Below are positions 1,176 to 22,551 of a stretch of DNA of 34,790 nt, piece by piece (the stretch's first letter is position 1; each line of letters starts with the position of its first letter). Location of the stretch: IMG/VR virus record IMGVR_UViG_3300042938_000934, positions 1 to 34,790 of that record; one strand, given 5' to 3'. Under the pieces are notes generated by a model. The model worked only from the letters and a program-made list of their open reading frames with translations. It made no database searches and had not been told where the DNA came from. This DNA is from a virus. Both the position numbers and the translations under genes were made by a program.

Positions 1176-1183
1176 TATTTATT
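1176..1183 (-). promoter_or_regulatory. Putative T4-type late promoter for gp19 (AATAAATA)
   Basis: The minus strand reads AATAAATA, one mismatch from the T4 late -10 consensus TATAAATA. Its first bases overlap the TAA stop of gp18 (1184-1182), and it lies 20 bases before the gp19 ATG. The same arrangement recurs at 20048-20055 and 25574-25581, which raises confidence above chance in this AT-rich DNA. Confidence 0.5.
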
Positions 1184-2849
1184 AGAACTGCCCAACAACT
1201 TCTTGGAACGAAACACCAGTGCGTACAGCAATGAAATTAAGTTGAATGAAGTTAATTGAACGGGATGGTTTAATATAGATATCACCTACAAATTCATTAC
1301 GGTCAATGACTTCTGGAGTGTTATTTGTGGTATCACACACAACACGGAAATCATAGACACCACGGCGACCCTGAACTTCACGAAGGAAAGGTTCAACCAA
1401 GTTAACAAATTGAGCTCGAGTAAATTCATCATTAAACTCAAACATACTTGAACGTGCAGCTTTAGCAATAGATTTCTCTAGAACAATAAAGAGTCTGCGA
1501 ACGTTGATTCTATCAAATGCGCTAGGTCTGGACAACAGTGTCTTATCACCATACAAGACTGTACCTTCTCCGGGGAATGTAACCACAGGGTTGACACCGT
1601 TTTTGTATAAATCATCACGGTTAGCTTGTCCTGGATTCCAGGCCAACTTAACAACATTTTTAATAACACCACGATTGAAACCAGCTGGTGAGAACCAAGG
1701 ATCTCTTTCAACATCAGTTCTGACTGTTAATCCAGCAATATCACCATTTAATGGAATCCAACGATACACATCGTTGTACTTATCATATTGATATTTCCAG
1801 CCACTATCCATCACAACATATGATGATGATGTATAATTTGCACGTGTTGAAAGAATTGATGTTGTTTCCGAACCTGAGTTGTCAACAACATCCGATTTTT
1901 GTGGTGAAACAAAAACCAAACAATCTTTTCTACTCTCTGCGATACCAATAAGGTGATTGACCAGTGTACTTCCTGTTGTTGGTCCGGACATAATAAGTGA
2001 AACGTCCACCGAGTCAGCGTTAGAAAACAGATTATATGCTTGCTGTAAATCACCAACAGAAGGTGCAGTTGAAGTACCGCCAGCTAGTGTGAAAGTATCA
2101 GCAGCTGTCATTCGAGCAAAGCTTTTTCCTGCAGCTGTTGTACCCCAGTTTGTACCGTCTGAATTATGTTTCGTCCACCAAACATATTTTGAACGCTCGT
2201 TAATAACATCTTTGTAATAGTTACTCGAACCATCGGAATTTTTAGCATCGGAGGCTTTCGAAACATATCCGAATCTTTCCAAAACCGTGTTTGCTGCACC
2301 TGAAATGTTTCCGTTGGTGTCATAAACCACGATATGCAATTCATCATGATGTCCGTTTCTGTCTGTAACATATGTCGATGTGTTTGCTGCTGAATCGAAA
2401 GTATTTGCAAATGCCCAACCAGTAAAGGTGTTACCATCAGCAATAGAAACACCCAAAGAATTGCCTAACGTACCTGGCCATTTAGCAACGAAGTCATCGT
2501 TACCTGAACCAGATGAGTGATTGTTTTCATAGTCTGTTGAATTTTTGATTTGTATGCCAACATTCGATGTTGTTGCGTTTAATGTTCCTGTGTTCGCTGC
2601 ACGAACTACCCTCAGGTTACTTCCATATGAAAGGAAGTTAGCTGCGGTGTAGAAATGTCCGAAAGTATTTGATGTTGGTTTACCAAAAGTGTCAACGAGG
2701 CGGATTTCATTAGAAATATTGTAAACTTCTTCTACTGGTCCCCACGCAAAATCTCCTGCCAAACCACCAACAGTAGTTGCAACAGAAGGAACAACCGTTG
2801 TCAAATCTACTTCGGAGATATTAACTCCTGGTGATATCTGAAAAGCCAT
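1182..2849 (-). CDS. gp18: Contractile tail sheath protein gp18
   Basis: This 555-residue protein is the tail sheath subunit that contracts to drive the tube into the host. The N-terminus (SPGVNISEVDLTTVVPSVAT, then GLAGDFAWGPV at about residues 29-39) is the typical start of T4-like sheath proteins. The C-terminal 60-70 residues (DFRVVCDTTNNTPEVIDRNE, then SINFIQLNFIAVRTGVSF) form the conserved core that joins neighbouring subunits. T4 gp18 has 659 residues, so this is a compact version; the reduction most likely falls in the variable surface-exposed middle domains. Start ATG 2849-2847 has AAGGAG about 7 bases upstream. A CATAAATA box lies 56 bases upstream, in the gap after gp17. Confidence 0.95.
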   Translation of the reverse strand: MAFQISPGVNISEVDLTTVVPSVATTVGGLAGDFAWGPVEEVYNISNEIRLVDTFGKPTSNTFGHFYTAANFLSYGSNLRVVRAANTGTLNATTSNVGIQIKNSTDYENNHSSGSGNDDFVAKWPGTLGNSLGVSIADGNTFTGWAFANTFDSAANTSTYVTDRNGHHDELHIVVYDTNGNISGAANTVLERFGYVSKASDAKNSDGSSNYYKDVINERSKYVWWTKHNSDGTNWGTTAAGKSFARMTAADTFTLAGGTSTAPSVGDLQQAYNLFSNADSVDVSLIMSGPTTGSTLVNHLIGIAESRKDCLVFVSPQKSDVVDNSGSETTSILSTRANYTSSSYVVMDSGWKYQYDKYNDVYRWIPLNGDIAGLTVRTDVERDPWFSPAGFNRGVIKNVVKLAWNPGQANRDDLYKNGVNPVVTFPGEGTVLYGDKTLLSRPSAFDRINVRRLFIVLEKSIAKAARSSMFEFNDEFTRAQFVNLVEPFLREVQGRRGVYDFRVVCDTTNNTPEVIDRNEFVGDIYIKPSRSINFIQLNFIAVRTGVSFQEVVGQF

Positions 2850-4553: not shown

Positions 4554-4556
4554 AAT

Positions 4557-4991
4557 TTATTTTAAAAAACTTCTTAACATCCAACCATGCTTTTCATGTG
4601 CATCAATTCTACCTGCAATAAAGTCAGCAATACCTTGTTTCTTAAAATTGTCAGCTAAATCAAAAGCTACATCTAAAGTTCTCAAAACTTTAGTATTATC
4701 GGATTCAAGTCTTCGACACATTTCTCTAAAATCAGGTACAGAATTTTCACATTCAATATCTGTCATTTCAAGAAATCTCGTCATCGATGTTGGTGCATAA
4801 ATGTCCAAAGTGCGAATTTCTTCAGCTATTGGGTCAATCGAACCGTGTAATTCGGTATATAAGTCACCTAAAAAACCATGAGCCTGTGCAAAAAGAGGAC
4901 CCTCTACATTCCAGTGGTAAGCATGAGATTTGACATAGAGCGCAAAGGTATCAGCTAAGGCCTTTTTTAAAATTTCTTGTAGAGTTTCCAT
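4557..4991 (-). CDS. dps: Dps-like ferritin-fold DNA-protection protein
   Basis: This 144-residue protein resembles Dps, a dodecameric ferritin-fold protein that oxidises and stores iron and protects DNA. Visible family signatures are SHAYHWNVEGPLF (22-34), AHGFLGDLY (37-45), DPIAEEIRTL (53-62) and the C-terminal AHEKHGWMLRSFL. By spacing to E. coli Dps, His26, His38, Asp53 and Glu57 match ferroxidase ligands H51, H63, D78 and E82. The position of D67 is Gly42, with Asp43 next to it. E. coli Dps has 167 residues and a Lys-rich N-terminal tail; here the protein begins almost directly at helix A, so no DNA-binding tail is evident. The gene sits 2 bases downstream of gp16 and 3 bases upstream of gp17, with AAGGAAT about 6 bases before its ATG. 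A Dps gene inside the terminase pair is not part of T4 gene order. The family call is firm; the role in infection is inference. Confidence 0.88.
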   Translation of the reverse strand: METLQEILKKALADTFALYVKSHAYHWNVEGPLFAQAHGFLGDLYTELHGSIDPIAEEIRTLDIYAPTSMTRFLEMTDIECENSVPDFREMCRRLESDNTKVLRTLDVAFDLADNFKKQGIADFIAGRIDAHEKHGWMLRSFLK

Positions 4992-4993
4992 CT

Positions 4994-5401
4994 TTATTCC
5001 TTGTTATTTTTTATCATTTTTATTAAATCGGTTGTTGATCCGATGAATACAGCTTTATCAACACTTATAGAATTATTTTCTTTAGTTGAAACACCTGTCA
5101 ACTCTTTGCGCTTCTTCTGTATATCTATAAGGTCTTTATTTAAGTCTGCCATAGTCTTTATTAGAGTTGCTGCAACTTCGTAAGCTCTGGGGTGTTCTGA
5201 TTCTTCCGCTACTTTTAATAAATTATCAATAGCACCGTCACTTTTTTGTAACAGTTCTCGTATATTACTTCTTGCTAATTTAAGATCGGAATCCAAATCT
5301 GAACTCGTTTCTACTTCCGCAACTACAAGTTCAGATTTAGGTTCTTCAGGTATTGGTTCTATGTCAAATATTTCAGATAAATTTTGATTCAATTGTTTCA
5401 T
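4994..5401 (-). CDS. gp16: Terminase small subunit gp16
   Basis: This 135-residue protein is the small terminase, which recognises or holds DNA and stimulates gp17. The central SEHPRAYEVAATLIKTMADL (about residues 68-87), continuing with NKDLIDIQKKRKEL, matches the coiled-coil oligomerisation core of T4 gp16, which carries the same RAYEVA...LIKTM...NKDL pattern. T4 gp16 has 164 residues. The ATG (5401-5399) overlaps the gp15 stop by four bases (ATGA), and the Dps-like gene follows after 2 bases, so gp15, gp16, Dps and gp17 are probably translated from one message. The N-terminal 40 residues are acidic and poorly conserved. Confidence 0.92.
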   Translation of the reverse strand: MKQLNQNLSEIFDIEPIPEEPKSELVVAEVETSSDLDSDLKLARSNIRELLQKSDGAIDNLLKVAEESEHPRAYEVAATLIKTMADLNKDLIDIQKKRKELTGVSTKENNSISVDKAVFIGSTTDLIKMIKNNKE

Positions 5402-6399
5402 GTTATAGTTCTAGGCCACTCAGTTATGGTTTCTGTGAAACCGTATTCATCATCTGGTTGAGCATTAATTGGGTTCGGTTCAGTCACAACAGCAAATGCC
5501 TTTACTGGACTTAAATCTACCGAATCAACTGAGAAGAGAGCATTAGAGTAGTCTCCTCTAATTATATCGTTTTCTTCAAGTAACTCGGTTAACTCTTCTA
5601 CGATTAAAACACCAGTCGAATTATTACTGAAATATGTGACCTTTCCAGTTACTGGTTTGTTACTCACTCTTATTGTTTCACCCGTAGTGAATACCCCATT
5701 ACCTGTTGCAAAATCAACAAAAACTTTTTGTGCATCGAGTTTTCTTGTATCTGTATAAATGTTCGTATTGGCCCTTCTAATTAAACCAGTATTTGGTGAA
5801 ATGACGGGAGGAAATATAAATGATTTAACCGTAAAGTTTAAATTCCAAATGATCATTCTAGTTGAAATCATATCTCCTTCATAATCAATCTCAGGCGTAA
5901 CTGAATTGAGTATGATTGGCATATCATATTTTTGGTCAAGGTCTTTAATCAGGTCCACTGTAACCGTAAAATCTGGCGTAAAGAATGGTAAAATTTGTTC
6001 GATGATTTGAGTGCCATCTTCCGTATTTCTAACATAGATAGACATTGTAAAGTCGAAATTATATGGTAAAGGTACATACTGTGAAGTTATACCATTCCCA
6101 CCAAAAGAGAAGTTTCGTGTTAGTGATACTTGTTTTCTGGAAGAATCATACGTTATTCCTTCCATATTAAAACTTATTCTAGGCAAAACAACACCAAATG
6201 AACGAAGAAGGTCTGGATCCGAGGCCAATCTGGTAATATATTTCTCTTTTGGTCCATATGAAAGTGGAACTTTAAGTCTTTCATATTCTGTTGAACCGTC
6301 TTTACTGTAACGAACTATTTCAAGATCGTTGAACAGTGTTCCGAAGGCAACCACAATCTTTCTGATTGTTCTATTATAAAAATGACGATTGCCTAACAT
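5398..6399 (-). CDS. gp15: Tail sheath stabiliser / tail terminator gp15
   Basis: This 333-residue protein is the T4 gp15 homologue, a hexamer that caps the finished tail and joins it to the neck. Conserved pieces are HFYNRTIRKIVVAFGTLFND (residues 6-25), VPLSYGPKEKY, VLPRISFNMEGITYD (71-85), SQYVPLPYNFDF and IIEQILPFFTPDFTVTV (132-148). T4 gp15 has 272 residues. The extra length is mainly an insertion at about 228-298 (GNGVFTTGETI ... NDIIRGDYSNALFSV) that resembles an insertion in gp14 and a segment of the gp8-like protein at the right end. GGAG sits about 8 bases before the ATG, which overlaps the gp14 stop by one base (TAATG). Confidence 0.93.
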   Translation of the reverse strand: MLGNRHFYNRTIRKIVVAFGTLFNDLEIVRYSKDGSTEYERLKVPLSYGPKEKYITRLASDPDLLRSFGVVLPRISFNMEGITYDSSRKQVSLTRNFSFGGNGITSQYVPLPYNFDFTMSIYVRNTEDGTQIIEQILPFFTPDFTVTVDLIKDLDQKYDMPIILNSVTPEIDYEGDMISTRMIIWNLNFTVKSFIFPPVISPNTGLIRRANTNIYTDTRKLDAQKVFVDFATGNGVFTTGETIRVSNKPVTGKVTYFSNNSTGVLIVEELTELLEENDIIRGDYSNALFSVDSVDLSPVKAFAVVTEPNPINAQPDDEYGFTETITEWPRTIT

Positions 6400-8987: not shown

Positions 8988-11546
8988 TTAATTTCCTTTT
9001 AGTGCGGCTACTTCAGCCATAAGTTGTTCTATTAACTGCTGCTGCTTTTGCATCGCTGAGCATATTGAAGGTATCAAAAAAGAAGCATCCACGCTCTGTG
9101 GGTTCATTGATCCGTTTTCATTTACAGCGTCTTTTTCGCCGTTAACACACTCAGGTGCAACCAAGTCAAGTTCATGTGCAATAAAGCCAATGCCTTTCAT
9201 TCCACCAAATTGTTGTTTCCAATCAAACGCAACAGGACGCAGTGACATAATTTTAGCAAGTGCTGCTGTAGTATCTAGGCCTACATCATTTTCTTTCATC
9301 CGGTAATCAGACGAGGTGTTGTAAGCGGTTGATCCACCGGAAGCAATAATAGAACCGGAAACCGTGGCACCGCTACTAACAGTAAAGTAACAGGGGATGC
9401 CAGAACCGGAAGAATTGCCAAAAATAATTCCTCTGTCTGTACTACTTATGGATACTGGAAAAGTGCCAGAACCTGCGGGAGAAGGCACCGATAAAATATT
9501 AAATCGTGATGTACTCTGTGGATCACAATAATAAGCTGTGTCGTTTAAATCGTAAAAAATAGGCGCACGCATTGATACTGTTGCATATGCGTTACCTGAA
9601 AAATCCCAATAATGATGTACTGTGCTGGCCGACCATCCGCCTAATTTAAATATATTGTCTGTATCTAAACCTAAGTTAACTGCATATGCGCCCGGTCTGT
9701 GAAACGACATAGAAGCTGCCGTGCCTGCTCCGCTTGATCGTACAGAAAATGTAGAATCGTTTGCGCTTGTAAATGCGGATGCATTACCAACTGTAGCCAA
9801 CACCCCCGTCATACCGCCACCCGCTAAAGGCAGATAACTTGCGGCTGTGGTAGCTGTTGCAGCATTACCTGTAATGTTAATACCCCAATTACCAGAAGCT
9901 CCTGATCCCGTTAAGGATGGTGCGTATGAAGTGTAATTACTGCTATTTAAATAATAAACCCATGCGCCAAACGATCCGCCAGTTACATTTCGTGTAGCTA
10001 ATTTATTGGCGTTATCTTCCCATCCCCACGCAACCTGCGTACCCCAATAATTACTTCCGTTGGTGTGCCTAAAGTTTTGTTGTATCCACCAAGAACCACC
10101 CGGCCCATTAGTCCCGTTTGCTCCAACATCGCCGCCGTATTTGGCAGTTCCCGCAGCTGTGTTTTGAAAGTCACCATTCCAAGAGCCTGTTGAACCAGTT
10201 TGGCTAATAAAATTGCTTGAAGTTAAACTTGTTGCGCTACCCGCAATATTCATCGACTGACCGCTAATAAACGTAGCTACAGCCGCCGCTGTTGCAGAGC
10301 GATAATAGTTATCCGTCTGTTTTGCTATTATTGCTGTCACGCCAGATGATATAGAATTATCAGTAGAGTTGAAATAAGTATTAAAGATATAACCATTACC
10401 ATCACGTTGTACGATTGTGCTTGCCGCCCCTGCTGTAGTGCTTGCAGTAATCGTAGCTGAGTTTGTTTGACCGGTGATGTTGGCCGCAGTAATAGGCCAA
10501 GTACCTGTTGGTGTGCCACCTAAAGTTAAGTTACCGCTTGTTGTAACCGTTCCAGTAAGTGTCAGTCCACCGTAATTACCGGTGCCACCGACACTCGTAA
10601 CTGTTCCTACATTCGATGTCTTTGAATTAGCCGTTGCAAATGCTGAGTTAGCATAAACACCAGAAGTAACAGCACGTTGATCGGCCGTTGCAGCATTTGT
10701 TGTTGCGGTGTTTGCCTGAGAAAATGCAGTATTGGTATGATTGACAACATCATATCCTCTAACCAAAACTGAATCGGAAATTAAATTGGATCGTAACGTG
10801 GTTATTCTTAGTGATGCATCATTAGGATCCAAGATGTTAGTTTCTTGAATATGTGGTGTATAACTATCAAAAAGGTAATAGGTGTTTGCGGAAGAATCCC
10901 GTACCAATCCAGTATGTTTTGTTGTTCCGCCTTCAATGTAGTGAGCAATAAATCCTGTATCTAACAGATTTCCTGGATTATTATTTGCTAATAGAATTAA
11001 CGGATCATTGATAACTAGACTGTCAGAAGCATGTGTGACAGTATTACCAGTAATATTCAAGTTACCTGTTATGTTTACATCACCTGAAATTGTACCACCT
11101 GTGGAATTATATTTTGTATTTGCGGTGATGAATGCTGAATTAGCATATGAACCAGAAGTTACTGCTCTTTGGTCAGCTGTTGCAGCATTAGTGGTTGCGG
11201 TATTTGCTGTACTAAAAGCACTATTGGCATATGAACTGGCGCTGTTTGCAGCATCTCTAACCCATGTGTCTGTAGCATTGTTAGCTCTATCGAAAGCTGC
11301 TTGTGCTAATATGGTACCTGTGTTTGCTTGGATATAAGCTGAGTTGGCGTGATTATTAACATTGGCTTGTATCGTTGTAGATCCAATAATTAAATTACCC
11401 GAAACAGTTAGATCGCCTGTTGACGAGACCAGCATGTGATCATCGAGCATCAGGTTACCACGTACAATCACATCTCCATTAGCAGAAATAATCTCATTAC
11501 TTCCGACACTAATGCCGTTCTTTACTGTAAAGTTTTTAATTGACAT
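8988..11546 (-). CDS. Large tail fibre protein with C-terminal S74 intramolecular chaperone
   Basis: This 852-residue fibre protein has several parts. The N-terminal 60 residues (MSIKNFTVKNGISVGSNEII) look like a repetitive beta stem. Residues about 65-145 are Ala/Asn-rich repeats (ANSAF, ANTATTNAATADQR). Next comes a module with DPLILLANNNPGNLLDTG that recurs in two other genes here, then more Ala/Asn repeats and a long variable Gly/Ser/Thr-rich shaft. The C-terminus from about 745 (SSDYRMKEN ... GIGFIAHELDLVAPECV ... SVDASFLIPSI) is a Peptidase_S74 intramolecular chaperone, a family known to trimerise phage fibres and self-cleave at the Ser of the S-D-x-R-x-K motif. A short coiled coil ends the protein. 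The shaft is visibly richer in G+C than the N-terminal part, suggesting a chimera. The Shine-Dalgarno is weak. Confidence 0.88.
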   Translation of the reverse strand: MSIKNFTVKNGISVGSNEIISANGDVIVRGNLMLDDHMLVSSTGDLTVSGNLIIGSTTIQANVNNHANSAYIQANTGTILAQAAFDRANNATDTWVRDAANSASSYANSAFSTANTATTNAATADQRAVTSGSYANSAFITANTKYNSTGGTISGDVNITGNLNITGNTVTHASDSLVINDPLILLANNNPGNLLDTGFIAHYIEGGTTKHTGLVRDSSANTYYLFDSYTPHIQETNILDPNDASLRITTLRSNLISDSVLVRGYDVVNHTNTAFSQANTATTNAATADQRAVTSGVYANSAFATANSKTSNVGTVTSVGGTGNYGGLTLTGTVTTSGNLTLGGTPTGTWPITAANITGQTNSATITASTTAGAASTIVQRDGNGYIFNTYFNSTDNSISSGVTAIIAKQTDNYYRSATAAAVATFISGQSMNIAGSATSLTSSNFISQTGSTGSWNGDFQNTAAGTAKYGGDVGANGTNGPGGSWWIQQNFRHTNGSNYWGTQVAWGWEDNANKLATRNVTGGSFGAWVYYLNSSNYTSYAPSLTGSGASGNWGINITGNAATATTAASYLPLAGGGMTGVLATVGNASAFTSANDSTFSVRSSGAGTAASMSFHRPGAYAVNLGLDTDNIFKLGGWSASTVHHYWDFSGNAYATVSMRAPIFYDLNDTAYYCDPQSTSRFNILSVPSPAGSGTFPVSISSTDRGIIFGNSSGSGIPCYFTVSSGATVSGSIIASGGSTAYNTSSDYRMKENDVGLDTTAALAKIMSLRPVAFDWKQQFGGMKGIGFIAHELDLVAPECVNGEKDAVNENGSMNPQSVDASFLIPSICSAMQKQQQLIEQLMAEVAALKGN

Positions 11547-11568
11547 TCTGGTTCACTGTCCCCAAATG

Positions 11569-12237
11569 TTATATGTTAATTGTTGTTCTATGTAGTTTTG
11601 CTGTGGTAATCGAATTGACTGGTGTTAATAGTAATCTTACATTACCACTTACAATACTTGTTGCAAATGTACCTAAAGATACATTGGTAAAGTTATCACC
11701 ATATTGTACAAAAGTGGATGTTGTTCCATTATGTAGTATTGATATTTCTGTGAAGTGATAATCAGTACCACTTGTTAACTGTACGAGATATTTAGCACTT
11801 CTGTAAGTTGATGCTGAAAAACTATCTATACTTACTTGTGTGTTAGATGATGTGGTTAATGTATTCGATGCCTGTACGGTTTGTTGTATCGTTACTGTAT
11901 TTGCACCAACATCACCAATGCCTGTAATTGAGGCATAGTTCACCATCACATCACCAACACGTTTAACGTAGCCGGTGTTTACATCAGCATTTGGTATGAA
12001 TACGTGGGCTCTAAACTTATCACCAAGAACGGCAGATTCAACCAATACAACAGTACTGGAATTATTAGCAAAGTAATCTTCACCGTCCGTTAACACCGCA
12101 CCGTTAAGGAATACGTCAATATAACCTGGAGAATAACCACCAACAATACCAAATTCGGATTGCGTCAGGTCAGTTACAGTTCTATCTGTAACAGTCTTTG
12201 CAACACTTATTTGGGGAGAATTCCCGATATATGACAT
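11569..12237 (-). CDS. Fibre-associated virion protein (GYIDVFLNG-type domain)
   Basis: This 222-residue protein begins MSYIGNSPQISVAKTVTDRT, a start often seen in small virion proteins of aquatic T4-like phages. Residues about 35-85 (SPGYIDVFLNGAVLTDGEDY ... TVVLVESAVLGDKFRAHVF) form a small beta domain common in phage fibre and tail-tip proteins. The remainder is Thr/Ser-rich beta, with VQLTSGTDYHFTEISILHNG in the C-terminal half. The ATG has GGAG about 8 bases upstream, and a perfect TATAAATA late box lies 25 bases upstream. It precedes the 852-residue fibre in transcription, so it may be an attachment or collar piece for that fibre. The exact role is unknown. Confidence 0.75.
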   Translation of the reverse strand: MSYIGNSPQISVAKTVTDRTVTDLTQSEFGIVGGYSPGYIDVFLNGAVLTDGEDYFANNSSTVVLVESAVLGDKFRAHVFIPNADVNTGYVKRVGDVMVNYASITGIGDVGANTVTIQQTVQASNTLTTSSNTQVSIDSFSASTYRSAKYLVQLTSGTDYHFTEISILHNGTTSTFVQYGDNFTNVSLGTFATSIVSGNVRLLLTPVNSITTAKLHRTTINI

Positions 12238-12261
12238 TAATTACTCCAAACTTTTATATGG

Positions 12262-12269
12262 TATTTATA
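12262..12269 (-). promoter_or_regulatory. T4-type late promoter (perfect TATAAATA)
   Basis: The minus strand reads TATAAATA, an exact match to the T4 late -10 consensus. It lies 4 bases past the stop of the small gene at 12274-12450 and 25 bases before the start of the 222-residue protein. It is the best of the late-promoter candidates in this window. Confidence 0.7.
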
Positions 12270-12273
12270 GTGA

Positions 12274-12450
12274 TTAATTTGTTATATCTTCATCGGGTGG
12301 TAATGGCTCGTTGCCTTCTGCCAGCCACTTTAGGTATTCTTGATAGTCGGTATTAGCGGGTTCAAAGGGAATAAACGCACCGTCGATCAAACGCTTTACT
12401 ACCAACAAATTCTCAGAAGGATTCTTTGGGTTAGGGAGTAGTTTGTACAT
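12274..12450 (-). CDS. Small 58-residue fibre-neighbour protein
   Basis: This is a 58-codon reading frame on the minus strand. It starts MYKLLPNPKNPSENLLVVKR, continues with a GAFIPFEPANTDYQEYLKW core and ends EGNEPLPPDEDITN. The ATG (12450-12448) abuts the TAA of the upstream fibre gene, so translation is probably by re-initiation. The IPF-PAN-DY-EYL-WL-EGN pattern is one I recognise from small proteins, or protein tails, next to fibre genes in many proteobacterial phages and prophages. Their function is not established; an assembly or tip accessory is possible. The gene fills what would otherwise be a 213-base gap. Confidence 0.82.
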   Translation of the reverse strand: MYKLLPNPKNPSENLLVVKRLIDGAFIPFEPANTDYQEYLKWLAEGNEPLPPDEDITN

Positions 12451-14112
12451 TTATAGCTCCGCACTTGCTGTGAAGTGGAAATATGACTCATTGGCTTGGT
12501 TAACTGCGCTTAAATTTTGATTGATGCTCCACAAATCTTGAGATGTGTACGTTACGCCTGCAGCCAAATTTATTCCTGAACCCCCAGTGCCTTTATAGGT
12601 ATAGGTACTTCCAGAAGTACCGTCAGCCGCAGAATAAATAACAACCGTCGGACTGGTTCTTTTTTGAACAACAAATCTAATGGTTTGAGAAGTAACCGTA
12701 TCATCGCTTGCGATTAAATTTAATGTAATAGGTTTTGATGTGCCAAATGGATACGCTTGGCCAAAGTTATACCCGGGCGCAAAACCAGTTGGGTAACTTA
12801 GTTCGTAATACCGCTGACACAACGCTAACTCTGTCCCGATACTCCTAAACTCAAACGGTGTAGCGACTGAGCCTTTCTCTAGCTGTACGCCTGTGATGTA
12901 GAAGGTGGCTCCGCTTGTGCCGACTACGGATGTTGTGCCAGTAACACTAGTAAAGTTACCTGCTGTCCATACACCCGCTGTAGTTTGAAATGTAGAACCA
13001 GAACCCAAATCAAATTGAACTCGAATACCGACACCGTTATTTGTTGCCCAAGTGCCAGACGTATCACCAACTATGGTAATGGTTTTGTATTCCCAAGTAT
13101 TTGCGGCATTAATTGAGTAAGAAAAAGCGTAAGAACGATCAACCGTTGCATTGCGAAAGCTACCGCTAAATGTGCCAGTTAAGCTAGATCGAACCCAAAA
13201 TGAAAGAGTAACTGTGGACGCATTTGCTGTTCCCCACCCTAAGTCTAAACCGTTAAATCCTTCAATTGCTTGAGTAATTGCAAAGTAATCGGATGATAAG
13301 CGAGCGTATGCAGAAGTAGAAGTAATGCCAAGATAGTTAGTAAAGCCAACTGGCGGAGTAACCGAACCTGCGTTTTGCTGAACAGTAAATTTACTAGATT
13401 GAGCGACAATATATGCCCACCGATCAACTGTATAAGTAGAAGTTCCAACTACGGTTGTTGCGACACTCGCCCCCGCATTTCTCTGGTCAATCGTCATCGC
13501 ACCGTTGATAATGCGGTTCTTGAATCCAGTCTGCGGGGAGTAGTTATTACCAGCAACACTTAATGATCCAGAAACCTTTACATTCCCTGAGACATCCAAT
13601 TTCTCTGTAGGTGAACTCGTATCAATCCCCACGTTGCCGGCAGAAGTGATATACGCTTTATTTGAAAGACTCATTAACCCCGCATCAGTAACACGAATAT
13701 ATCCGTTTTCGGCGCTAACTCCAGAATTTGTGAATTGAAGTGTTGCTGCGTTTGCTGTTGCATTTGAACGCAAACGCAATGCATAGCCAAAGTTCGCAGT
13801 TGTGTCACCAGCAGCTACATCTAACCGATAACCAGGCGAACTCGTACCAATACCTATTTGTCCATTTACATCCTTGTAGAACTGACCTGAACCAATATTA
13901 ATGATGCCAGTATTACCTGTAAGTGTTCCACTATAGGAAAGGTTGGTGAATGTACCACTATAAGGTGTATTCGCACCAATGACGCCGTTGATTGGACCTG
14001 TGACGCTAAGTATTCCAGCGTCAAATGAAACAGTTGAATCACTATTGATAGTGAGACTGGGAACGTTTGATGTTGGATGTAGAATTTCGGTTACTTTGAT
14101 TATACTAGCCAT
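12451..14112 (-). CDS. Tail fibre protein with C-terminal beta-sandwich (putative receptor-binding) domain
   Basis: This 553-residue fibre protein has an N-terminal adaptor (MASIIKVTEILHPTSN) and a beta stem with the shared IINIGSGQFYKD/GIGTSSPG module (about 70-95) and a further GNVGIDTSSP repeat. From about residue 200 to the end it has a different tip: NRIINGAMTIDQRNAG, TVDRWAYIV, LSFWVRSSLTGTFSG, ITGVQLEKGSVATPFEFRS and LALCQRYYE. This tip is a widespread phage/prophage fibre end with a carbohydrate-binding-like jelly-roll look, so receptor or glycan binding is likely. Unlike its neighbours it has no S74 chaperone. Its ATG overlaps the upstream fibre stop by one base (TAATG). Confidence 0.85.
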   Translation of the reverse strand: MASIIKVTEILHPTSNVPSLTINSDSTVSFDAGILSVTGPINGVIGANTPYSGTFTNLSYSGTLTGNTGIINIGSGQFYKDVNGQIGIGTSSPGYRLDVAAGDTTANFGYALRLRSNATANAATLQFTNSGVSAENGYIRVTDAGLMSLSNKAYITSAGNVGIDTSSPTEKLDVSGNVKVSGSLSVAGNNYSPQTGFKNRIINGAMTIDQRNAGASVATTVVGTSTYTVDRWAYIVAQSSKFTVQQNAGSVTPPVGFTNYLGITSTSAYARLSSDYFAITQAIEGFNGLDLGWGTANASTVTLSFWVRSSLTGTFSGSFRNATVDRSYAFSYSINAANTWEYKTITIVGDTSGTWATNNGVGIRVQFDLGSGSTFQTTAGVWTAGNFTSVTGTTSVVGTSGATFYITGVQLEKGSVATPFEFRSIGTELALCQRYYELSYPTGFAPGYNFGQAYPFGTSKPITLNLIASDDTVTSQTIRFVVQKRTSPTVVIYSAADGTSGSTYTYKGTGGSGINLAAGVTYTSQDLWSINQNLSAVNQANESYFHFTASAEL

Positions 14113-17100
14113 TATTTGTTCTCCAGTACTTCGAGTCTAGCTGTGAGTTCTTGGATTGCCGCAACTAAGGTAGCAACTAGGAACGAGGTATCTACGCCTT
14201 GGTATTGAGGTTTACCGTCTTTATATGTTTCATCCTTTGTGCCGGTAACACAGTCAGGTACTACAGCTTGGAGTTCATGGGCGATGAAACCTTGTCCAGT
14301 GCTGCCGTCTGCTTTCCATGTATATGTGCATGGTTTTAATAGTGCGACTGTCGTTAAAGCGCCTATCATAGGTGTTACGTTTTCTTTAAGACGGTAATCA
14401 GAGGTTGTGTTGTAAGAAGTTCCTGTTGTACTGCAAGAAATACTTCCAACTGCAACTTGAGTTGCGCCTTTGTAAAAAGACAAGGCTGCAAATGTGGTTG
14501 TTCCTGTTTGCCAAATGTTAAATGTATTATTACCATTAACAGTATGCTTAATGTTAAATCCATCGCCTGTACTAGCTACTACATTTATTTGTCCTTCAGC
14601 ATTGATCAGTGGATTTGTCGTAGTCCCCAACAGCAAGTTGCCAGAGGAGTTGAGGCGCATACGTGGCGTAACTGTTGTGCCGTTGTAGCTACTGAAATCA
14701 AGACCAGCGCCAGCAGAACCATAAACAATGTTTACTTCAGCAGAACCGTTAGAATAATTTCCACCAAATGATAAGCCATATACACTTAACCCTGTTGTAC
14801 TAGCGCCACCAGAATTTGCATAAAATGTCCCCGCCCACGAAGCCGTAGCGGCAATTGAAGTTAGCCTTACGTTACTGGTAGTCACCGTACCAATCCCTAC
14901 GTTGCCAGAGGAGTCGATACGCATACGTTCGTTGCCGTTGGTTGTAATTACCAATGGGTTTGTGCTTACGCTAGTAATATACGACTCTGCGTTATTGGCG
15001 TTAAAATATAGTCTTGTTACTCCTGCCGTTTGTATCTCTAGCCCCGGATAATTTGCCGCCGTAGCATTGTTAATCGCCAAGCCACTTGATACTGTTGTAG
15101 TTCCCGCAGTCGTACCAATCCCCACGTTACCAGAGGAGTTGATACGCATCCGCTCTGTGCCATTAGTAACCCAACGATGTCCAGCATATGCGCCATATAC
15201 CATCGCACCATTTAATGCAGAAGATGTAGAGCTTGTTGTTGGAGATGAATCGTAAGCACCCCAAATAGCGTTGTATTCACCAATAGTTGTACTGGCTAAA
15301 TTATCGCCATCCAAAGGCATAGCAATACTTCTCGGAGTGCTTGTATTAGCAGCATTTCTAATAACATTTAAACCAGCATAATTCCAGTTTGACGCACCAC
15401 GAACAAAAGTAGTTGTGCCTGATGATGTGTTTCCTAAATAAACATCTCCGCGAGCATCTAAAATTCCACTAGGGCTACTCGTGCCAATTCCTACGTTTCC
15501 GGAGGAGTTAAGGAACATCTTTTCTGTGCCGCTTATTCTAAACGAATGGTCTGCCGCATCGTATGCTGTGCTTACATAACCCGGACTACTTCTGTTGTAG
15601 CTTTGGATGTAAGTGCCAACACCGCCGCCGGGGTAATTAACAAAAAACTCAAGCCCTGCTGCGCCACCGTTTGATACGGCTAGTTTTGCCTGTGGTGTAG
15701 TTGTACCAATCCCCACGTTGCCGGAGGAGTTGATTCGCATACGTTCTGTGCCAGCCGTACTCGCAGCAATCGTATCAGCAGCAGGAAACCAAATACCTGT
15801 ATTAGTGTCACCTGTTGTCGTAACAGAGGGAGTACTAGCCGCCCCTGCTGGGAACACTACCCCGCCTGTGCCTTTTGGTGTCAGGGTTAGGTTAATGTTG
15901 GTGTCTGAGCCTGCCGCCACTACTTGGACTGCGTTACCTGTGGCGCTACCCGCTACTTGTAAATAATTCACCGCACTAGCAACAGGCGTGACACGCAGGG
16001 ATTCTGAGCCTGCGGTTGCGCCGAAAGAGATTGTGCCTGTATTAGCAATGACAATTCTATTGACGTTGTTGCTTTTCAATACCAAATCTTGAGCGACACC
16101 CGCAAATATTGGTGCTTCTAGAACTTTTACTTTAAGCTCACTCATTATACTTTTCCTTCCAATGTTTTAATGCGAGCATCTTGTTGATCTATGATGGATT
16201 TTAATTCTTGGATTGCTGCAGTTAGAGTAGCAACTAGGAACGAGGTATCTACGCCTTGGTGTTGCGGCTTGCCATCTTTGTCTATAGCGTCTTTAGTTCC
16301 TGTTACGCAATCCGGCACTACCTCTTGTAACTCATGGGCTATAAAGCCTTGACCGTTTGGACTTGTTCCTGCGAACTCTGGTTTCCATGTGTAAGTCACA
16401 GGCTTAAGTGCCAACACCGTATCAAGTGCGCCAGACATAGGCTGCACGTTTTCTTTTAGTCGATAGTCCGATGACGTTGCATAAGTTGTTGTTGAGCCAG
16501 ATGAGCTAATTGTTCCAGCGCCAACAAACGCACTTCCATTGTCTGTATAAAAGTTAAGATTTGTTCCAGATGTACTATCTATGCCAAAATAAGATACACC
16601 ACTTGAGCATCTAACTCTTAAACCACCTCCAGCCAATAAGCCACTTCCATTTACTCTACTTGCAACCGGATTGGTAGAAGTAGTCCCCACCAGCAAGTTG
16701 CCAGAGGAGTCGAGGCGCATACGTTCTGAGCCGCCAGTATTAAACGCCAATAAATTGGTTCCAAAAACAATTTCTTCTTGTACTCCAGTAGCAGCATCAC
16801 TTTGGTCAACACTTCGACGTATACGATAAGATGATGTTCCCCAATCGCCAACACCAGAACCTGTAGAATCTCTGACATTAACTATTCGCAAGCCGTCATT
16901 ACTACCGCTACGACTATCGGCAAAATACGCCATATTGACGTAATCACCAGCAGTTAATCCTACTACTGGAGTCTGTGAAATTAACCCATACAATGTGCTT
17001 GAAGCAGTCGTAACATAGATTTTTGACGTAGGCGAAACCGTACCAATCCCCACGTTGCCAGAGGAGTCGAGCTTCATGCGAACAACACCATCTAACGCAA

Positions 17101-17965
17101 ACGCAATACCGCCGCTCGCATTATTTGCATTAAGAAGCATTGCATCTTGAGCGCCAGTAATGTCGGTAAAGGTGCTGCTTGTCATGCCAAAGGTTGCGTT
17201 ACCAGCATTAGAAAGAGCTATGAAGCGGGAAACCGCAGAAGCCCCTGCGGCTGAGTTTGTAACTGCGTTGCTGATATTGCCGTTTGTATTACCAACAGTG
17301 TGAAGTTGGTATACCGGCGAAGTCGTACCAATCCCTACGTTGCCAGAGGAGTCGATACGCATCTTTTCTGAAACACTACCACCAGAATTTGAAGTCCCAA
17401 AAGATAAATACCCAGCAAAATTAGATGCAGTAGCATTTTCTTTTAATCCCGCAACATAACAAAATCCGTATGGGTCAAAACTGCCACCTTCACCACTAAC
17501 TCCACCAAGAGCAATTTTCCCGCCTTTATCAGCAGCAATAGTGTCCGTTGAAAAAACTTGTAACTGACCGTTCCCTCCCGTAATTGACGGCATTGCCCCT
17601 GCGACATGAAGTTTTCCTGTTGGCGAAATCGTACCAATCCCCACGTTGCCAGAAATGTCAATCTGCATACGTTGTGAATCTGATGTCCAAAACGAAATTG
17701 GCTTGAATGCTCCGGTAGATATATAAGATGACAAAACCCTGTTTGTATCTGAAGCTGAATCGTACCCAATGCCGATAAAAGTATCGTTTGCGCTATTGAT
17801 ACTAACTACACCTAGCGATGCTGATGAGGTATTGGCGGATTGTTTGACTGACAATCTGTAACTAGGTGAAGTCGTGCCAATCCCTACTTGTCCATTTGCA
17901 TCCTTGTAGAACTGACCTGAACCAATATTAATGATTCCAGTATTACCGGTCAATGTTCCACTATA
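13861..17965 (-). repeat. Near-identical 75-bp tract shared by two fibre genes
   Basis: The tract at 13861-13935 (553-residue fibre) and the tract at 17891-17965 (655-residue fibre) agree at 70 of 75 positions by my direct count. It encodes the IINIGSGQFYKD beta-stem module. A more diverged third copy lies near 21535-21610 in the 721-residue fibre. A separate 34-base exact match, in the S74 domains, lies at 14170-14203 and 16227-16260. Confidence 0.85.
14112..16145 (-). CDS. Tail fibre protein with S74 chaperone and multiple GNVGIGT repeats
   Basis: This 677-residue fibre protein starts MSELKVKVLEAPIFAGVAQD. Residues about 70-135 include TLTPKGTGGVVFP and GDTNTGIWFPAADTI, a stem found in many S74 fibres. 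The shaft then carries about five copies of the RMRINSSGNVGIGT motif separating variable blocks. The C-terminal 98 residues (from about 580: TTSDYRLKENV, GQGFIAHELQAVVPDCVTG, QGVDTSFLVATL) are an S74 intramolecular chaperone with the S-D-x-R-x-K self-cleavage motif, followed by a coiled coil. The gene overlaps both neighbours by one base. DNA is clearly richer in G+C than the window overall; one 60-base line at 15901-15960 is 36/60 G+C, against 19/60 at 30301-30360. Confidence 0.88.
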   Translation of the reverse strand: MSELKVKVLEAPIFAGVAQDLVLKSNNVNRIVIANTGTISFGATAGSESLRVTPVASAVNYLQVAGSATGNAVQVVAAGSDTNINLTLTPKGTGGVVFPAGAASTPSVTTTGDTNTGIWFPAADTIAASTAGTERMRINSSGNVGIGTTTPQAKLAVSNGGAAGLEFFVNYPGGGVGTYIQSYNRSSPGYVSTAYDAADHSFRISGTEKMFLNSSGNVGIGTSSPSGILDARGDVYLGNTSSGTTTFVRGASNWNYAGLNVIRNAANTSTPRSIAMPLDGDNLASTTIGEYNAIWGAYDSSPTTSSTSSALNGAMVYGAYAGHRWVTNGTERMRINSSGNVGIGTTAGTTTVSSGLAINNATAANYPGLEIQTAGVTRLYFNANNAESYITSVSTNPLVITTNGNERMRIDSSGNVGIGTVTTSNVRLTSIAATASWAGTFYANSGGASTTGLSVYGLSFGGNYSNGSAEVNIVYGSAGAGLDFSSYNGTTVTPRMRLNSSGNLLLGTTTNPLINAEGQINVVASTGDGFNIKHTVNGNNTFNIWQTGTTTFAALSFYKGATQVAVGSISCSTTGTSYNTTSDYRLKENVTPMIGALTTVALLKPCTYTWKADGSTGQGFIAHELQAVVPDCVTGTKDETYKDGKPQYQGVDTSFLVATLVAAIQELTARLEVLENK

Positions 17966-18112
17966 ACTTGGATTAACATTACTTAATGGTGTATATCCTA
18001 ATCTTGCAGATATATCTGTATAGTATGTGTTGGCTTGTCCAGCAAAGGTTTCAGCATCAATAACTCCTGCCGATCCGGAAATACCTGTAGAACCATCTAA
18101 TATAAGAGACAT
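16145..18112 (-). CDS. Tail fibre protein with S74 chaperone, paralogue of the adjacent fibre
   Basis: This 655-residue fibre protein begins MSLILDGSTGISGSAGVIDA. Its early GQFYKDANGQVGIGTTSPSY module is nearly identical in DNA to the same module in the 553-residue fibre. The shaft has repeated SSGNVGIGT motifs separating variable blocks. The C-terminal 110 residues (from about 546: TSSDYRLKENV, NGQGFIAHELQEVVPDCV, QGVDTSFLVATLTAAIQEL) are an S74 chaperone very close to that of the 677-residue fibre, including a 34-base identical DNA stretch. The two look like duplicates that have diverged in the shaft, which is the part expected to meet the receptor. The ATG has AAGGT about 7 bases upstream. 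Its stop overlaps the next start (TAATG). Confidence 0.88.
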   Translation of the reverse strand: MSLILDGSTGISGSAGVIDAETFAGQANTYYTDISARLGYTPLSNVNPSYSGTLTGNTGIINIGSGQFYKDANGQVGIGTTSPSYRLSVKQSANTSSASLGVVSINSANDTFIGIGYDSASDTNRVLSSYISTGAFKPISFWTSDSQRMQIDISGNVGIGTISPTGKLHVAGAMPSITGGNGQLQVFSTDTIAADKGGKIALGGVSGEGGSFDPYGFCYVAGLKENATASNFAGYLSFGTSNSGGSVSEKMRIDSSGNVGIGTTSPVYQLHTVGNTNGNISNAVTNSAAGASAVSRFIALSNAGNATFGMTSSTFTDITGAQDAMLLNANNASGGIAFALDGVVRMKLDSSGNVGIGTVSPTSKIYVTTASSTLYGLISQTPVVGLTAGDYVNMAYFADSRSGSNDGLRIVNVRDSTGSGVGDWGTSSYRIRRSVDQSDAATGVQEEIVFGTNLLAFNTGGSERMRLDSSGNLLVGTTSTNPVASRVNGSGLLAGGGLRVRCSSGVSYFGIDSTSGTNLNFYTDNGSAFVGAGTISSSGSTTTYATSSDYRLKENVQPMSGALDTVLALKPVTYTWKPEFAGTSPNGQGFIAHELQEVVPDCVTGTKDAIDKDGKPQHQGVDTSFLVATLTAAIQELKSIIDQQDARIKTLEGKV

Positions 18113-18121
18113 TTTATTACC

Positions 18122-20026
18122 TTATACAATAGTCCAGACGGATCCGTCCGGTACAGTAACTATTACTCCATCTTGGATTTCTATTGGTCCCGCACTCATG
18201 GCGTTCTTTCCAGATGTGATTGTATATGATGCTGTTACATTGGCATCATTCTCATAGAACACTTCGTTACCACTTGATCCTGATGCGCCACCACCTATCG
18301 AACCCCATGCCGTTCCATTATATCCTTCAAACTGTTCGAGTTCTTGGTTAAATCTGAATTCACCGGATGTTCCAGTTGTTCTTTGGGCAGTATTACCAGT
18401 AGGTACTTTTATTGCCGAATTACTATTGAAAATTGCGGTACCGTTTACTATTACTCCGGATGTCGTGAATCTTGCAACCACATTCTGTTCATTGATACCA
18501 CCAACAATAATCTTAATGTCGGTAGGAACTTCAGTTGATGTTGTACCAATAACTAGGTTTCCACCCAACTGATCGATTGAACTGCCTTTGACGACCAAAT
18601 ATCCATCAAGCGGCCATGCAGAAGTTCCTAAACTGTTATTTGGATATAGATTGTTATACTGTGAGTTCTTGATACCCAAATCAACATAGAAAGAAGAATC
18701 GTCTCCTACGTCAGCGGTCAGTACATAATCAGATGTACCTTGTGGGTCAATATTTTGTTGATTAACTTGTATGTATGTGTTAGAGTTGCCAGTGAATTGA
18801 CCAAGTGCATTAGGTAATAGTGTTGCAGAATATGTAGCTACGCCAGCATAAAACTCAGTATTCGCATAGAGAACTTGTGCAAATACATTACCTGTTGTGG
18901 ATAATGCACCAGTCATTGCATCACCGCTTCTCAATACCCTACTATTAGCGGTAGAGAATGCGGCATTAGCGTATACACCAGATGTTACTGCTCTTTGATT
19001 GGCGGTATTAGCTTGTGTATATGCATTATTTGTGTGATCGACTACATCATATCCTCTAACCAAAACCAAATCTGATATAAGATTTGACTTAAGTGTTGTT
19101 ATTCTTAATGTTGGTTCATCAGGATCTATAGTATTTGTTTCTTGTAGATGAGGCACATAACTATCAAAAAGGTAATACGTATTCGCAGAAGAATCTCTTA
19201 CCAATCCAGAGTGTTTTGTTACACCACCTTCAATATAATGAGAAATGAATCCTGTGTCCAGAAGATTTCCTGGATTATTATTGGCTAACAAAATCAAAGG
19301 ATCATTAACTACGAAACTGTTTGATGAATGAGTGACTGTATTGCCTACAACATTCAAGTTACCAGTTATATTAACATCACCTGAAATCGTTCCACCACTG
19401 GAATCGTATTTGGTGTTAGCTGTAGAGAATGCTGAGTTGGCGTGATTATATGATGAATTAGCGTATGAACCAGCACTAACTGCCTTTTGATCCGCTGTCG
19501 CAGCATTAGTTGTTGCGGTATTGGCTCTAGAAAATGCCGCATTCGCATAAACACCACTTGTTACCGCTTTCTGATCAGCTGTTGCAGCATTAGTTGTTGC
19601 GGTATTTGCTTGTTCATAAGCACTATTGGCATATGATGAAGCTGAATTGGCAGCATTTCTAACCCAAGTATCTGTTGCATTGTTCGCAGCATTATATGCA
19701 GCATTAGCCTGTAAATATGCAGAGTTGGCGTATACACCAGATGTTACAGCACGTTGATCTGCTGTGTTTGCTTGAGTGTAAGCCGCATTTGCATATAGAC
19801 CAACTGTTGTCAATGCCGGTAAATCAATTGTTCCATTAACTGTAAGATTACCAGAGACAATGATATTCGAGTTGAGTAGTACACTAGATGAATTCGATGA
19901 AATGGTGTTGATGAATATTACATTGGCGGAAGGCGTAATCAATGCAGGACTTCCAGCAAAGACTAATGCTCCGTTACCGGTAGTATTACTAATTGCTTGT
20001 GCTAGGTCTAGTGCTCTTGATGCCAT
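18122..20026 (-). CDS. Fibre protein with Ala/Asn heptad repeats and GKNAMSAGP tip
   Basis: This is a 634-residue fibre protein. The N-terminus (MASRALDLAQAISNTTGNG) is followed at about 75-215 by dense Ala/Asn-rich repeats (ANTADQRAVTSGVYANSAYL and relatives), with many units 21 or 28 residues long. Then comes the DPLILLANNNPGNLLDTG module, nearly the same as in the 852-residue fibre. The C-terminus is not S74. It ends with NDANVTASYTITSGKNAMSA and GVIVTVPDGSVWTIV, a short tip found at the end of many phage fibre and tail proteins. A late-promoter-like AATAAATA lies 22 bases before the ATG. No strong Shine-Dalgarno is visible. It probably forms a trimeric rod. Confidence 0.84.
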   Translation of the reverse strand: MASRALDLAQAISNTTGNGALVFAGSPALITPSANVIFINTISSNSSSVLLNSNIIVSGNLTVNGTIDLPALTTVGLYANAAYTQANTADQRAVTSGVYANSAYLQANAAYNAANNATDTWVRNAANSASSYANSAYEQANTATTNAATADQKAVTSGVYANAAFSRANTATTNAATADQKAVSAGSYANSSYNHANSAFSTANTKYDSSGGTISGDVNITGNLNVVGNTVTHSSNSFVVNDPLILLANNNPGNLLDTGFISHYIEGGVTKHSGLVRDSSANTYYLFDSYVPHLQETNTIDPDEPTLRITTLKSNLISDLVLVRGYDVVDHTNNAYTQANTANQRAVTSGVYANAAFSTANSRVLRSGDAMTGALSTTGNVFAQVLYANTEFYAGVATYSATLLPNALGQFTGNSNTYIQVNQQNIDPQGTSDYVLTADVGDDSSFYVDLGIKNSQYNNLYPNNSLGTSAWPLDGYLVVKGSSIDQLGGNLVIGTTSTEVPTDIKIIVGGINEQNVVARFTTSGVIVNGTAIFNSNSAIKVPTGNTAQRTTGTSGEFRFNQELEQFEGYNGTAWGSIGGGASGSSGNEVFYENDANVTASYTITSGKNAMSAGPIEIQDGVIVTVPDGSVWTIV

Positions 20027-20047
20027 TTTTCGCTCGGTTTATTTTAG

Positions 20048-20055
20048 TATTTATT
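20048..20055 (-). promoter_or_regulatory. Putative T4-type late promoter (AATAAATA)
   Basis: AATAAATA on the minus strand overlaps the TAA stop of the 721-residue fibre gene and lies 22 bases before the start of the 634-residue fibre. The box-to-start spacing and the overlap with the upstream stop codon repeat the pattern before gp19. Confidence 0.5.
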
Positions 20056-22216
20056 GAGTCTTCAATAACTGTATTTCCGCACATAGTTCTTCAATCATTG
20101 TTTGTTGTTCTTGAATTGCTTTGAACGCTACAGCCACAAGTGAACCATAATCAACACCGTATTGTGTTTCTTCACTACCAAGAACAACTTCTGGAATAAT
20201 TTCTTTTAATTCTTGCGCAACAAACCCAATGTAATTACCAGCACAATCAGTTCTTGTGTAACTACGAGGTTTTGCGGCTATAACGGACGCTAAACCGTGT
20301 TCAATAGTACGAACGTTAGTTTTTAAACGTCCATCAGATGCGTTTGTCCAAGCACCAGCGGCAGACAAAGAAGGCACATTACCCGCTTGACTTGGAAAAA
20401 ACAACGTTGTATCAGCAGTATCGCCAGACCAAGACAGTTGCCGCCAAGTATTTGCGTTTCCAGTATGTGTAAGTTGAACCCCAGCTTTAATATTTACTCT
20501 GGAGTTTGTATTCCACGATGTCGCTGGCGCAACAGTTGTTAACACTAAAAGCGTACCATCGCTATTAATGCGCATACGTTCTGTTGGAGTTACTCCGGTA
20601 TAAAACGAAATTAATCCTGTGCTATCAGCCGCTTTACTAACAAGTCTTGTCTCCCGGGAAGATTCTAGAAAATGAACACCTAGTTCATAAGTGGTGCTGA
20701 ATTTTGAACCGACAAACCGATCCATTGAAGCCGCCCAAGTTTGCTGGACATCACCAGTAACCTCTAACTTACTTGCAGGCGAACTCGTACCAATCCCTAC
20801 GTTGCCAGAGGTGTCGATACGCATGGCTTCATTTGTAGTGCTAAACGCTAAGTAATTACCTGAGTTGTTTGTAATACCCGTTGCAACAATGCTGTTTTTA
20901 TAAGCACCTTGCTGCAATACCTTCAAGACATATCCACCAGCCTCTGAACCCGCAGTATTAAACTCAATAGTTGGAGCAAATTGCACATAATCTTTTTTTG
21001 CAGACGCCGCATTATTAGCACTAAACGTAAGGTTAGAAATTGAGCCGGCAGTTGCGCTAGTAAATAAATCTAGCTTACCTGTAGGTGAAACCGTACCAAT
21101 CCCCACGTTGCCAGAGCTATTAGCGACAATTAAGTTATCTGCAAAACCAACAGCATTTAATTTATAAAAATCAGCAGCACCAGAATTAACTGTCCACTCA
21201 AACGGAACTGTTGCCCCTGTCTGACGAAAAGAACCAACAACGTGAAGTTTACTTGCAGGCGAAGCAGTCCCAATCCCTACGTCTCCACCAGACTGTATTC
21301 GCATTTTTTCACTGCTGTTTGTAACAAACTTTAAAGCACCTGCTCGCAAGTTCCCTGTGTCTACGTCAATGCCGTTATGCCCAACATACCATTGCGCAAC
21401 ACTTGCGTTTGAATTAACTGTGTATAACAGAGCTGATCCAGTTTCCGCAGTTGATCTAATAGCTACAACATTACTTGCTGCGCCGCCACCAACTTCAAAT
21501 TTAACGCTAGGTGTAATGCCAATCCCCACATTCCCAGACGCATCCTTATAAATCTGCCCTGAGCCGATGTTAATAACACCTGTGCCGCCTGTGAGTGTGC
21601 CTGTGTATGATAGATTACTGAATGTTCCAGTGTTGGCAGTAACACCACCAATAGCCGGCGGTGAAGACAAATCTAAAGTGCCACCAAGTGTCAGATTTCC
21701 ACTCGTAGTGACTGTGCCCGTCAAGGTCAGACCATTAACTGTACCTGTGGCGCCAACGCTAGTAACTGTTCCTACATTAGATGTTTTAGAGTTAGCTGTC
21801 GCAAATGCTGAATTAGCATAAACACCAGAAGTTACGGCTCTTTGGTCCGCCGTGGCAGCATTAGTAGTTGCTGTGTTTGCTTGAGTATATGCACCGTTGG
21901 CATAAGAACCAGCACTTGTAGCATTAACTGATGCCGTATTAGCGACACCAAATGCAGAATTAGCATAAACACCAGAACTTACTGCCTTTTGATCTGCTGT
22001 GTTTGCAGCTGCATATGCTGAATTAGCATAAACACCAGAAGTAACAGCTTTCTGATCTGCTGTGTTTGCAGTTGCATATGCTGAGTTAGCATAATTTCCT
22101 GTTGTTGTGTTTAATTGTGTAACAGTATTCGCATCAACTGGTTGATAACCTAAACTGTCGGTGACTAATTCTGGAAGTGTAACAATTGGGTAAGTGGTTG
22201 TGCCTAGATAACTCAC
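20051..22216 (-). CDS. Tail fibre protein with heptad-repeat stem and S74 chaperone
   Basis: This is a 721-residue fibre protein. N-terminal MSYLGTTTYPIVTLPELVTD is followed at about 45-140 by tandem Ala/Asn repeats of 21 residues (ANTADQKAVTSGVYANSAY), then VGTVTSVGATGTVNGLTLTG, which is shared with the 852-residue fibre, then GNVGIGT-type stem repeats. The C-terminal 97 residues (from about 625: NASDGRLKTNV, GNYIGFVAQELKEIIPEVV, YGVDYGSLVAVAFKAIQEQ) form an S74 chaperone of a different subtype from those of the 677- and 655-residue fibres, ending in a coiled coil. The start is GTG at 22216-22214, overlapping the upstream TGA (GTGA), with GGAG about 6 bases upstream. Confidence 0.87.
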   Translation of the reverse strand: MSYLGTTTYPIVTLPELVTDSLGYQPVDANTVTQLNTTTGNYANSAYATANTADQKAVTSGVYANSAYAAANTADQKAVSSGVYANSAFGVANTASVNATSAGSYANGAYTQANTATTNAATADQRAVTSGVYANSAFATANSKTSNVGTVTSVGATGTVNGLTLTGTVTTSGNLTLGGTLDLSSPPAIGGVTANTGTFSNLSYTGTLTGGTGVINIGSGQIYKDASGNVGIGITPSVKFEVGGGAASNVVAIRSTAETGSALLYTVNSNASVAQWYVGHNGIDVDTGNLRAGALKFVTNSSEKMRIQSGGDVGIGTASPASKLHVVGSFRQTGATVPFEWTVNSGAADFYKLNAVGFADNLIVANSSGNVGIGTVSPTGKLDLFTSATAGSISNLTFSANNAASAKKDYVQFAPTIEFNTAGSEAGGYVLKVLQQGAYKNSIVATGITNNSGNYLAFSTTNEAMRIDTSGNVGIGTSSPASKLEVTGDVQQTWAASMDRFVGSKFSTTYELGVHFLESSRETRLVSKAADSTGLISFYTGVTPTERMRINSDGTLLVLTTVAPATSWNTNSRVNIKAGVQLTHTGNANTWRQLSWSGDTADTTLFFPSQAGNVPSLSAAGAWTNASDGRLKTNVRTIEHGLASVIAAKPRSYTRTDCAGNYIGFVAQELKEIIPEVVLGSEETQYGVDYGSLVAVAFKAIQEQQTMIEELCAEIQLLKTQ
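21811..22110 (-). repeat. Tandem repeats encoding Ala/Asn-rich 21- and 28-residue units
   Basis: Within the 721-residue fibre the reading frame repeats ANTADQKAVTSGVYANSAY-type units of 63 bases (21 residues), with one 84-base (28-residue) unit. The strings GCATAAACACCAGAA and TGATCTGCTGTGTTTGCAG recur on the plus strand. Related repeats occur at about 10620-11260 and 18960-19800 in two other fibre genes, and in weaker form at 22563-22740. Because 21 and 28 are multiples of seven, an Ala-core coiled coil is the simplest structural reading. Confidence 0.75.
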
Positions 22217-22548: not shown

Positions 22549-22551
22549 TTT

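Follow-up and report, generated by a model that had tools for sequence, protein, structure and literature searches.

Why should a T4-like phage carry a gene for a Dps-family mini-ferritin between the two genes of its terminase? The question is raised by a 34,790-nucleotide stretch of viral DNA, positions 1 to 34,790 of IMG/VR record IMGVR_UViG_3300042938_000934, here called the window. A preliminary description, made from the letters of the window alone, had read this placement as a sign that the protein is made late and in step with packaging. Our analysis favours another answer, a Dps kept for its iron and peroxide chemistry at a site where single genes are exchanged.

The Dps gene in the terminase operon

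The Dps reading frame is intact, with an ATG start and no internal stops, and the minus strand of the window reads gp13, gp14, gp15, gp16, Dps, gp17, gp18, gp19 (Table 1). As had been described, it is separated from gp16 by 2 nt (4992-4993) and from gp17 by 3 nt (4554-4556), and the contrast drawn with T4, where 16 and 17 are adjacent, is correct, the two T4 genes overlapping by 17 nt. Chance or an assembly error is ruled out because more than 100 contigs share the gp16-Dps-gp17 arrangement, including one that encodes 100% identical proteins (L001). In a further contig (L026:356-1686) the structural module is rearranged: gp16 and Dps are still paired, but the gp15 gene that comes after them lies on the other strand.

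Table 1. Terminase region of the window and codons of the predicted di-iron ligands
Feature	Position	Strand	Evidence
gp18, tail sheath, flanking the insertion region downstream	1182..2849	-	phrog_23 2e-138
gp17, terminase large subunit (TerL), 545 aa	2916..4553	-	PF03237 2e-30, PF17289, phrog_2 3e-63
Dps-family mini-ferritin, lineage A, 144 aa	4557..4991	-	profiles, fold search, AlphaFold2
Glu57 codon (PaDps E68)	4821..4823	-	invariant, 147 phage copies
Asp53 codon (PaDps D64)	4833..4835	-	invariant, 147 phage copies
His38 codon (PaDps H49)	4878..4880	-	invariant, 147 phage copies
His26 codon (PaDps H37)	4914..4916	-	invariant, 147 phage copies
gp16, terminase small subunit, 135 aa	4994..5401	-	phrog_445 1e-35, PF11053 1e-11
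gp15, tail sheath stabiliser, flanking the insertion region upstream	5398..6399	-	PF16724 1e-70

No obvious GC shift marks the Dps gene. A promoter and terminator scan gave nothing above chance and no terminator between the gp16, Dps and gp17 genes; together with the close spacing this suggests that Dps is co-expressed with the terminase genes. The T4-type late promoter TATAAATA matched once in the window, below chance, and not near the Dps gene. Elsewhere in the window, positions 8988-27840 hold a long run of tail-fibre/baseplate-like ORFs (852, 553, 677, 655, 634, 721 and 755 aa), several of which match the same PHROG tail-fibre families, suggestive of duplicated fibre genes, and a 2114-aa ORF (28081-34425) lies near the contig end. 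PADLOC defence models found no match, and a tRNA search, run for a clue to the host, found none.

A Dps with conserved di-iron ligands

Profiles, fold search and AlphaFold agree that the protein belongs to the Dps family. An HMM search placing the protein outside Dps and the ferritins had been named as a refutation; the search places it inside Dps, with matches to PF00210 (4e-20; 72.6 bits against a curated cut-off of 24.5), to phrog_3636 (4e-30) and, as best sequence match in the PDB, to PaDps of P. aeruginosa (8ff9; 1.7e-29). The NCBIfam Dps equivalogs match as well, but below their own cut-offs. In the AlphaFold2 model (pLDDT 96.9) the predicted helices 4-28, 34-60, 70-76, 88-115 and 119-143 form a ferritin-like four-helix bundle whose long loop bears a short helix; all 50 PDB matches listed for the model are of Dps type, the best again being PaDps (PA0962; TM 0.94, rmsd 1.0). 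The two proteins are 40% identical over an ungapped core and share all four di-iron ligands, while the window Dps differs in being phage-encoded, in lying in a terminase operon and in having Gly instead of Glu53.

The four ligands were invariant in 49 aligned phage copies and then in all 147 phage Dps sequences, which comprise 53 of lineage A, 64 of lineage B and 30 from elsewhere; K21, W27 and W137 are likewise invariant across the 147. Position 42, which corresponds to PaDps E53 and lies four residues after the second His, is Gly in the window Dps and non-acidic in nearly all phage copies, and the kinetics may therefore differ from those of PaDps. A dead iron site, caused by loss of the acidic residue after His38, was considered but discarded for two reasons: the residues described as iron ligands in PaDps are just the four that the phage protein retains (PMC10002758), and the sampled bacterial relatives themselves have Met at this position in 31% of cases, as against Glu in 69%. 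At the Tyr radical-trap positions of PaDps, Y27 and Y81, phage Dps mostly have Phe, Leu or Met.

PaDps uses H2O2 and protects cells against it (PMC10002758). The family name and the PHROG annotation 'DNA binding protein' could instead point to a nucleoid protein that coats DNA as E. coli Dps does. Against such a role, which we regard as highly improbable, the window protein has a net charge of -8, its first helix begins at residue 4 and the chain ends at 144, so that sequence and AlphaFold2 model alike are devoid of the Lys-rich or basic terminal tail of the E. coli type. The absence of this tail had been noticed at the outset, and the preference then given to iron/peroxide chemistry over DNA coating is upheld by the invariant PaDps-type ligands in an acidic, tailless protein. 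The window Dps is thus probably a working peroxide-type ferroxidase rather than a DNA coater. PaDps, the closest solved relative, also cleaves DNA in vitro (PMC10002758), and some phages have an SNase gene at this junction; one may therefore ask whether the phage Dps is a divalent-metal-dependent nuclease acting on host DNA or in packaging. This is very unlikely given the acidity of the phage protein, and 40% identity does not transfer the activity.

Occupancy of the gp16/gp17 junction

Among 385 relatives obtained in IMG/VR with Dps as bait, 49 of the best 80 had Dps directly before gp17 in a strict test. TerL as bait does not select for Dps, and in the window's own TerL clade the junction held Dps in 73 of 75 informative loci among the best 80 matches. 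The corresponding counts, each from a scan of the best 80 matches in which loci may include near-copies, were 27/71 in the TerL clade of L005, 5/80 (12 of the 80 loci being uninformative) in the lineage of L404 and 0/69 with TerL from the side of Pelagibacter phage Mosig and the Kyanoviridae. After thinning of the TerL tree the window clade retained 17 rows with lineage A, 17 with lineage B and one that was empty. The search of gp16-gp17 junctions in T4-like genomes and viromes, which the preliminary description had called for, thus recovers the insertion. That description had held that an insertion both ubiquitous and already characterised would undo its claim: near-ubiquity within the clade was indeed found, but no paper describing it. 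In INPHARED, no cultured T4-like phage had Dps at this junction, and the Dps matches belonged to other phage groups or to Synechococcus phage S-SRM01, whose Dps lies far from the terminase.

Two contigs of one close lineage have empty sites (L118:5817-5844 and L155:1718-1745) where a third with almost identical flanks is filled (L158:5537-6001). In the former gp16 runs straight into gp17, and these contigs are too short to exclude a Dps elsewhere. The three loci constitute a gene-precise presence/absence polymorphism at the junction. Where Dps is present it is constrained: in ten pairs of close relatives dN/dS of Dps was 0.02-0.07, a range like that of gp16 (0.02-0.06, two pairs), and the window Dps is under purifying selection.

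Two lineages of Dps replace each other

In the Dps tree the phage sequences group together (96/90), separate from the bacterial Dps that were sampled (99/92), and lineage B makes up a single branch (100/100); the tree has few columns and a rough inner order, and S-SRM01 falls outside on a very long branch. Lineages A and B are about 45% identical. On the TerL tree the label has to change 12 times for A and 14 times for B, and at least 7 and 10 of these changes, respectively, are forced by branches with good support. The 702 A/B pairs whose gp17 identity was 80% or more had Dps proteins at most 53% identical (median 45%), whereas in same-type pairs Dps identity was at least 53% (median 70%); comparisons involving L018 and L019 use short gp17 fragments at contig ends.

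Individual pairs display the same pattern. Identities between L009 and L323 are 84% for gp15, 83% for gp16, 43% for Dps and 95% for gp17, and those between L006 and L324 are 82%, 83%, 45% and 92%, with 91% for gp18. Next to the window itself, L002 and L082 are 76% identical in gp15, 65% in gp16, 49% in Dps and 90% in gp17. TerL rather than Dps as the swapped gene was rejected, since gp15, gp16, gp17 and gp18 all stay close in pairs like L006/L324. As judged from these trees and identities, lineages A and B have repeatedly replaced each other at the junction while the flanks remained, for which recombination in the conserved flanks between equivalent proteins would suffice.

Dps elsewhere in the genome and other genes at the junction

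Each of the nine near-complete contigs found through TerL (at least 120 kb; L091, L334, L364, L380, L419, L423, L445, L458 and L467) carries exactly one Dps, in a small sample with only one member from the window's own TerL clade. Dps is at the junction only in L091 and elsewhere in the other eight. In L364 it comes after regA in the replication module, with gp44, an Hsp20 gene and gp43 close by, and other off-junction copies follow a nucleotidyltransferase-like gene or lie near structural genes. This order is seen at L402:3576-4438, in one near-complete phage, where nothing separates regA from Dps and the Hsp20 gene stands between Dps and DNA polymerase. The 181-kb cyanophage-like record of L319 has no Dps. 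Since Dps is single-copy but variously placed in near-complete relatives, its function seems to be kept while its position moves. Late, packaging-coupled production deduced from placement therefore finds no support as a general rule, a lone Dps being found beside regA, gp44 and gp43 in relatives, and it is weakened further by the unrelated cargo that other T4-like phages carry between gp16 and gp17. Such timing is possible, but it is no longer the natural reading.

In phages with no Dps at the junction, the genes at the site encode an unknown protein of 69 aa, 2OG-Fe(II) oxygenases, an SNase or DUF5661 proteins. Loci with cargo of the latter three kinds are L255:1443-2030, L245:898-1497, L297:3394-3999, L356:1185-1613 and L307:2658-3812. 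The stretch g15-g18 is the published hyperplastic (hyper-variable) region of cyanomyoviruses (PMC2984593), and variable occupancy within it was found here too, as the filled/empty pair, the A/B replacement and the other cargo.

It may be envisaged that Dps belongs to the core proteins of a large, uncultured group of T4-like phages and works with the packaging or capsid machinery or is itself packaged, for example scavenging iron and peroxide within or close to the head as it fills, guarding DNA ends or forming part of the virion, with the two lineages interchangeable at the junction. In agreement with this, Dps is almost fixed at the junction in the window clade and recurs there in a second, deeply split TerL clade. 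The neighbours of off-junction Dps agree with it as well: 20/125 of these ORFs begin with T4 capsid-targeting-like sequences, against 18/1112 in terminase regions and 2/893 in bacterial loci; the motif is crude, was framed after seeing the data, and is also frequent in farther ORFs of the same loci (11/104). Dps itself lacks the T4 N-terminal targeting sequence, its N-terminus METLQEILKK being without the aromatic residue of the motif. Moreover, eight of the nine near-complete relatives keep their single Dps elsewhere, one of them in the replication module, the junction admits unrelated cargo, and the literature search found no virion proteome evidence for Dps. A packaging or capsid role is therefore unlikely. 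The ORFs around off-junction Dps that start with MxxFxxFxxE, or with a second motif, YRSLExxIR, are candidate internal head proteins (L045:5722-6000, L055:738-2834, L401:802-4001, L489, L490, L491).

Dps could also be one neutral or mildly useful passenger of a hotspot, of value only in some hosts or habitats. The varied cargo in other T4-like phages, the published hyperplastic region and the empty sites of L118 and L155 are in line with this. Yet the 73/75 occupancy among the best 80 matches, the single copy in all nine near-complete relatives, the low dN/dS and the ligands invariant in both lineages speak against it, and we hold this explanation to be unlikely.

Relation to other phages and implications

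Phage-carried Dps is known from Lactobacillus phages (PMC6669764) and from 'Gratiaviridae' gut phages (PMC8008677), for which the accessible text of both papers proposes a role in oxidative stress. These proteins (phrog_3636) belong to other phage groups, and the same text describes no T4-like terminase insertion; the Lactobacillus Dps lies near replication genes. In freshwater phages, according to the accessible part of the report, ferritin is among the ROS-defence genes carried by more than 10% of those phages (PMC6802176), an anti-ROS role shared with the window Dps but treated in that part without analysis of position, family or conservation. S-SRM01 (MW015081) is, like the window phage, T4-like with an annotated Dps; on its long branch, this is 32% identical to the window protein and lies at ~187 kb, as opposed to 128 kb for the terminase. 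In cyanomyoviruses the same structural-module stretch receives inserts, but these are 4-14 variable genes at a position said to be unique to cyanophages (PMC2984593), whereas the window clade, outside the Kyanoviridae, has one gene family nearly fixed. The open-licence literature, which is weak evidence for an absence, held no report of Dps fixed between gp16 and gp17 or of A/B exchange there.

The explanation that we consider probable is that of a near-core phage Dps, acting against Fenton chemistry and lodged at a cassette-exchange site. By homology its subunits would most likely assemble into 12-mers, and by family and ligands these would use H2O2 to oxidise Fe(II) at di-iron sites between subunits, of the PaDps type. 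With Fe(II) and H2O2 thus removed from the infected cell, phage DNA and proteins would suffer less Fenton damage. The gp16/gp17 junction would accept and exchange one-gene cassettes, which would account for the location of Dps, and in the window clade the cassette is almost always a Dps, which may come from lineage A or from lineage B, the two being interchangeable, and which selection maintains. The junction itself would be unnecessary for function, given that deeper relatives keep a single Dps elsewhere. In this scheme the Dps identity, the predicted fold, the conserved ligands, the purifying selection, the near-fixation at the junction, the repeated swapping and the other locations are results of the analysis, and we infer the 12-mer, the peroxide-type ferroxidase activity, the timing and the protective benefit.

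Dps in phages has previously been seen as scattered cargo, and here it has come close to fixation within the packaging operon of T4-like phages that form an uncultured clade. It combines strong purifying selection and gene-precise A/B exchange with a single copy elsewhere in deeper relatives. These observations suggest that infection by this virus requires a protein to handle iron and peroxide, although the site where its gene lies resembles a general insertion hotspot. The clade therefore lends itself well to testing whether control of iron and peroxide is among the core needs of lytic phages, and its junction is a natural experiment on how cassettes are exchanged between conserved structural genes.
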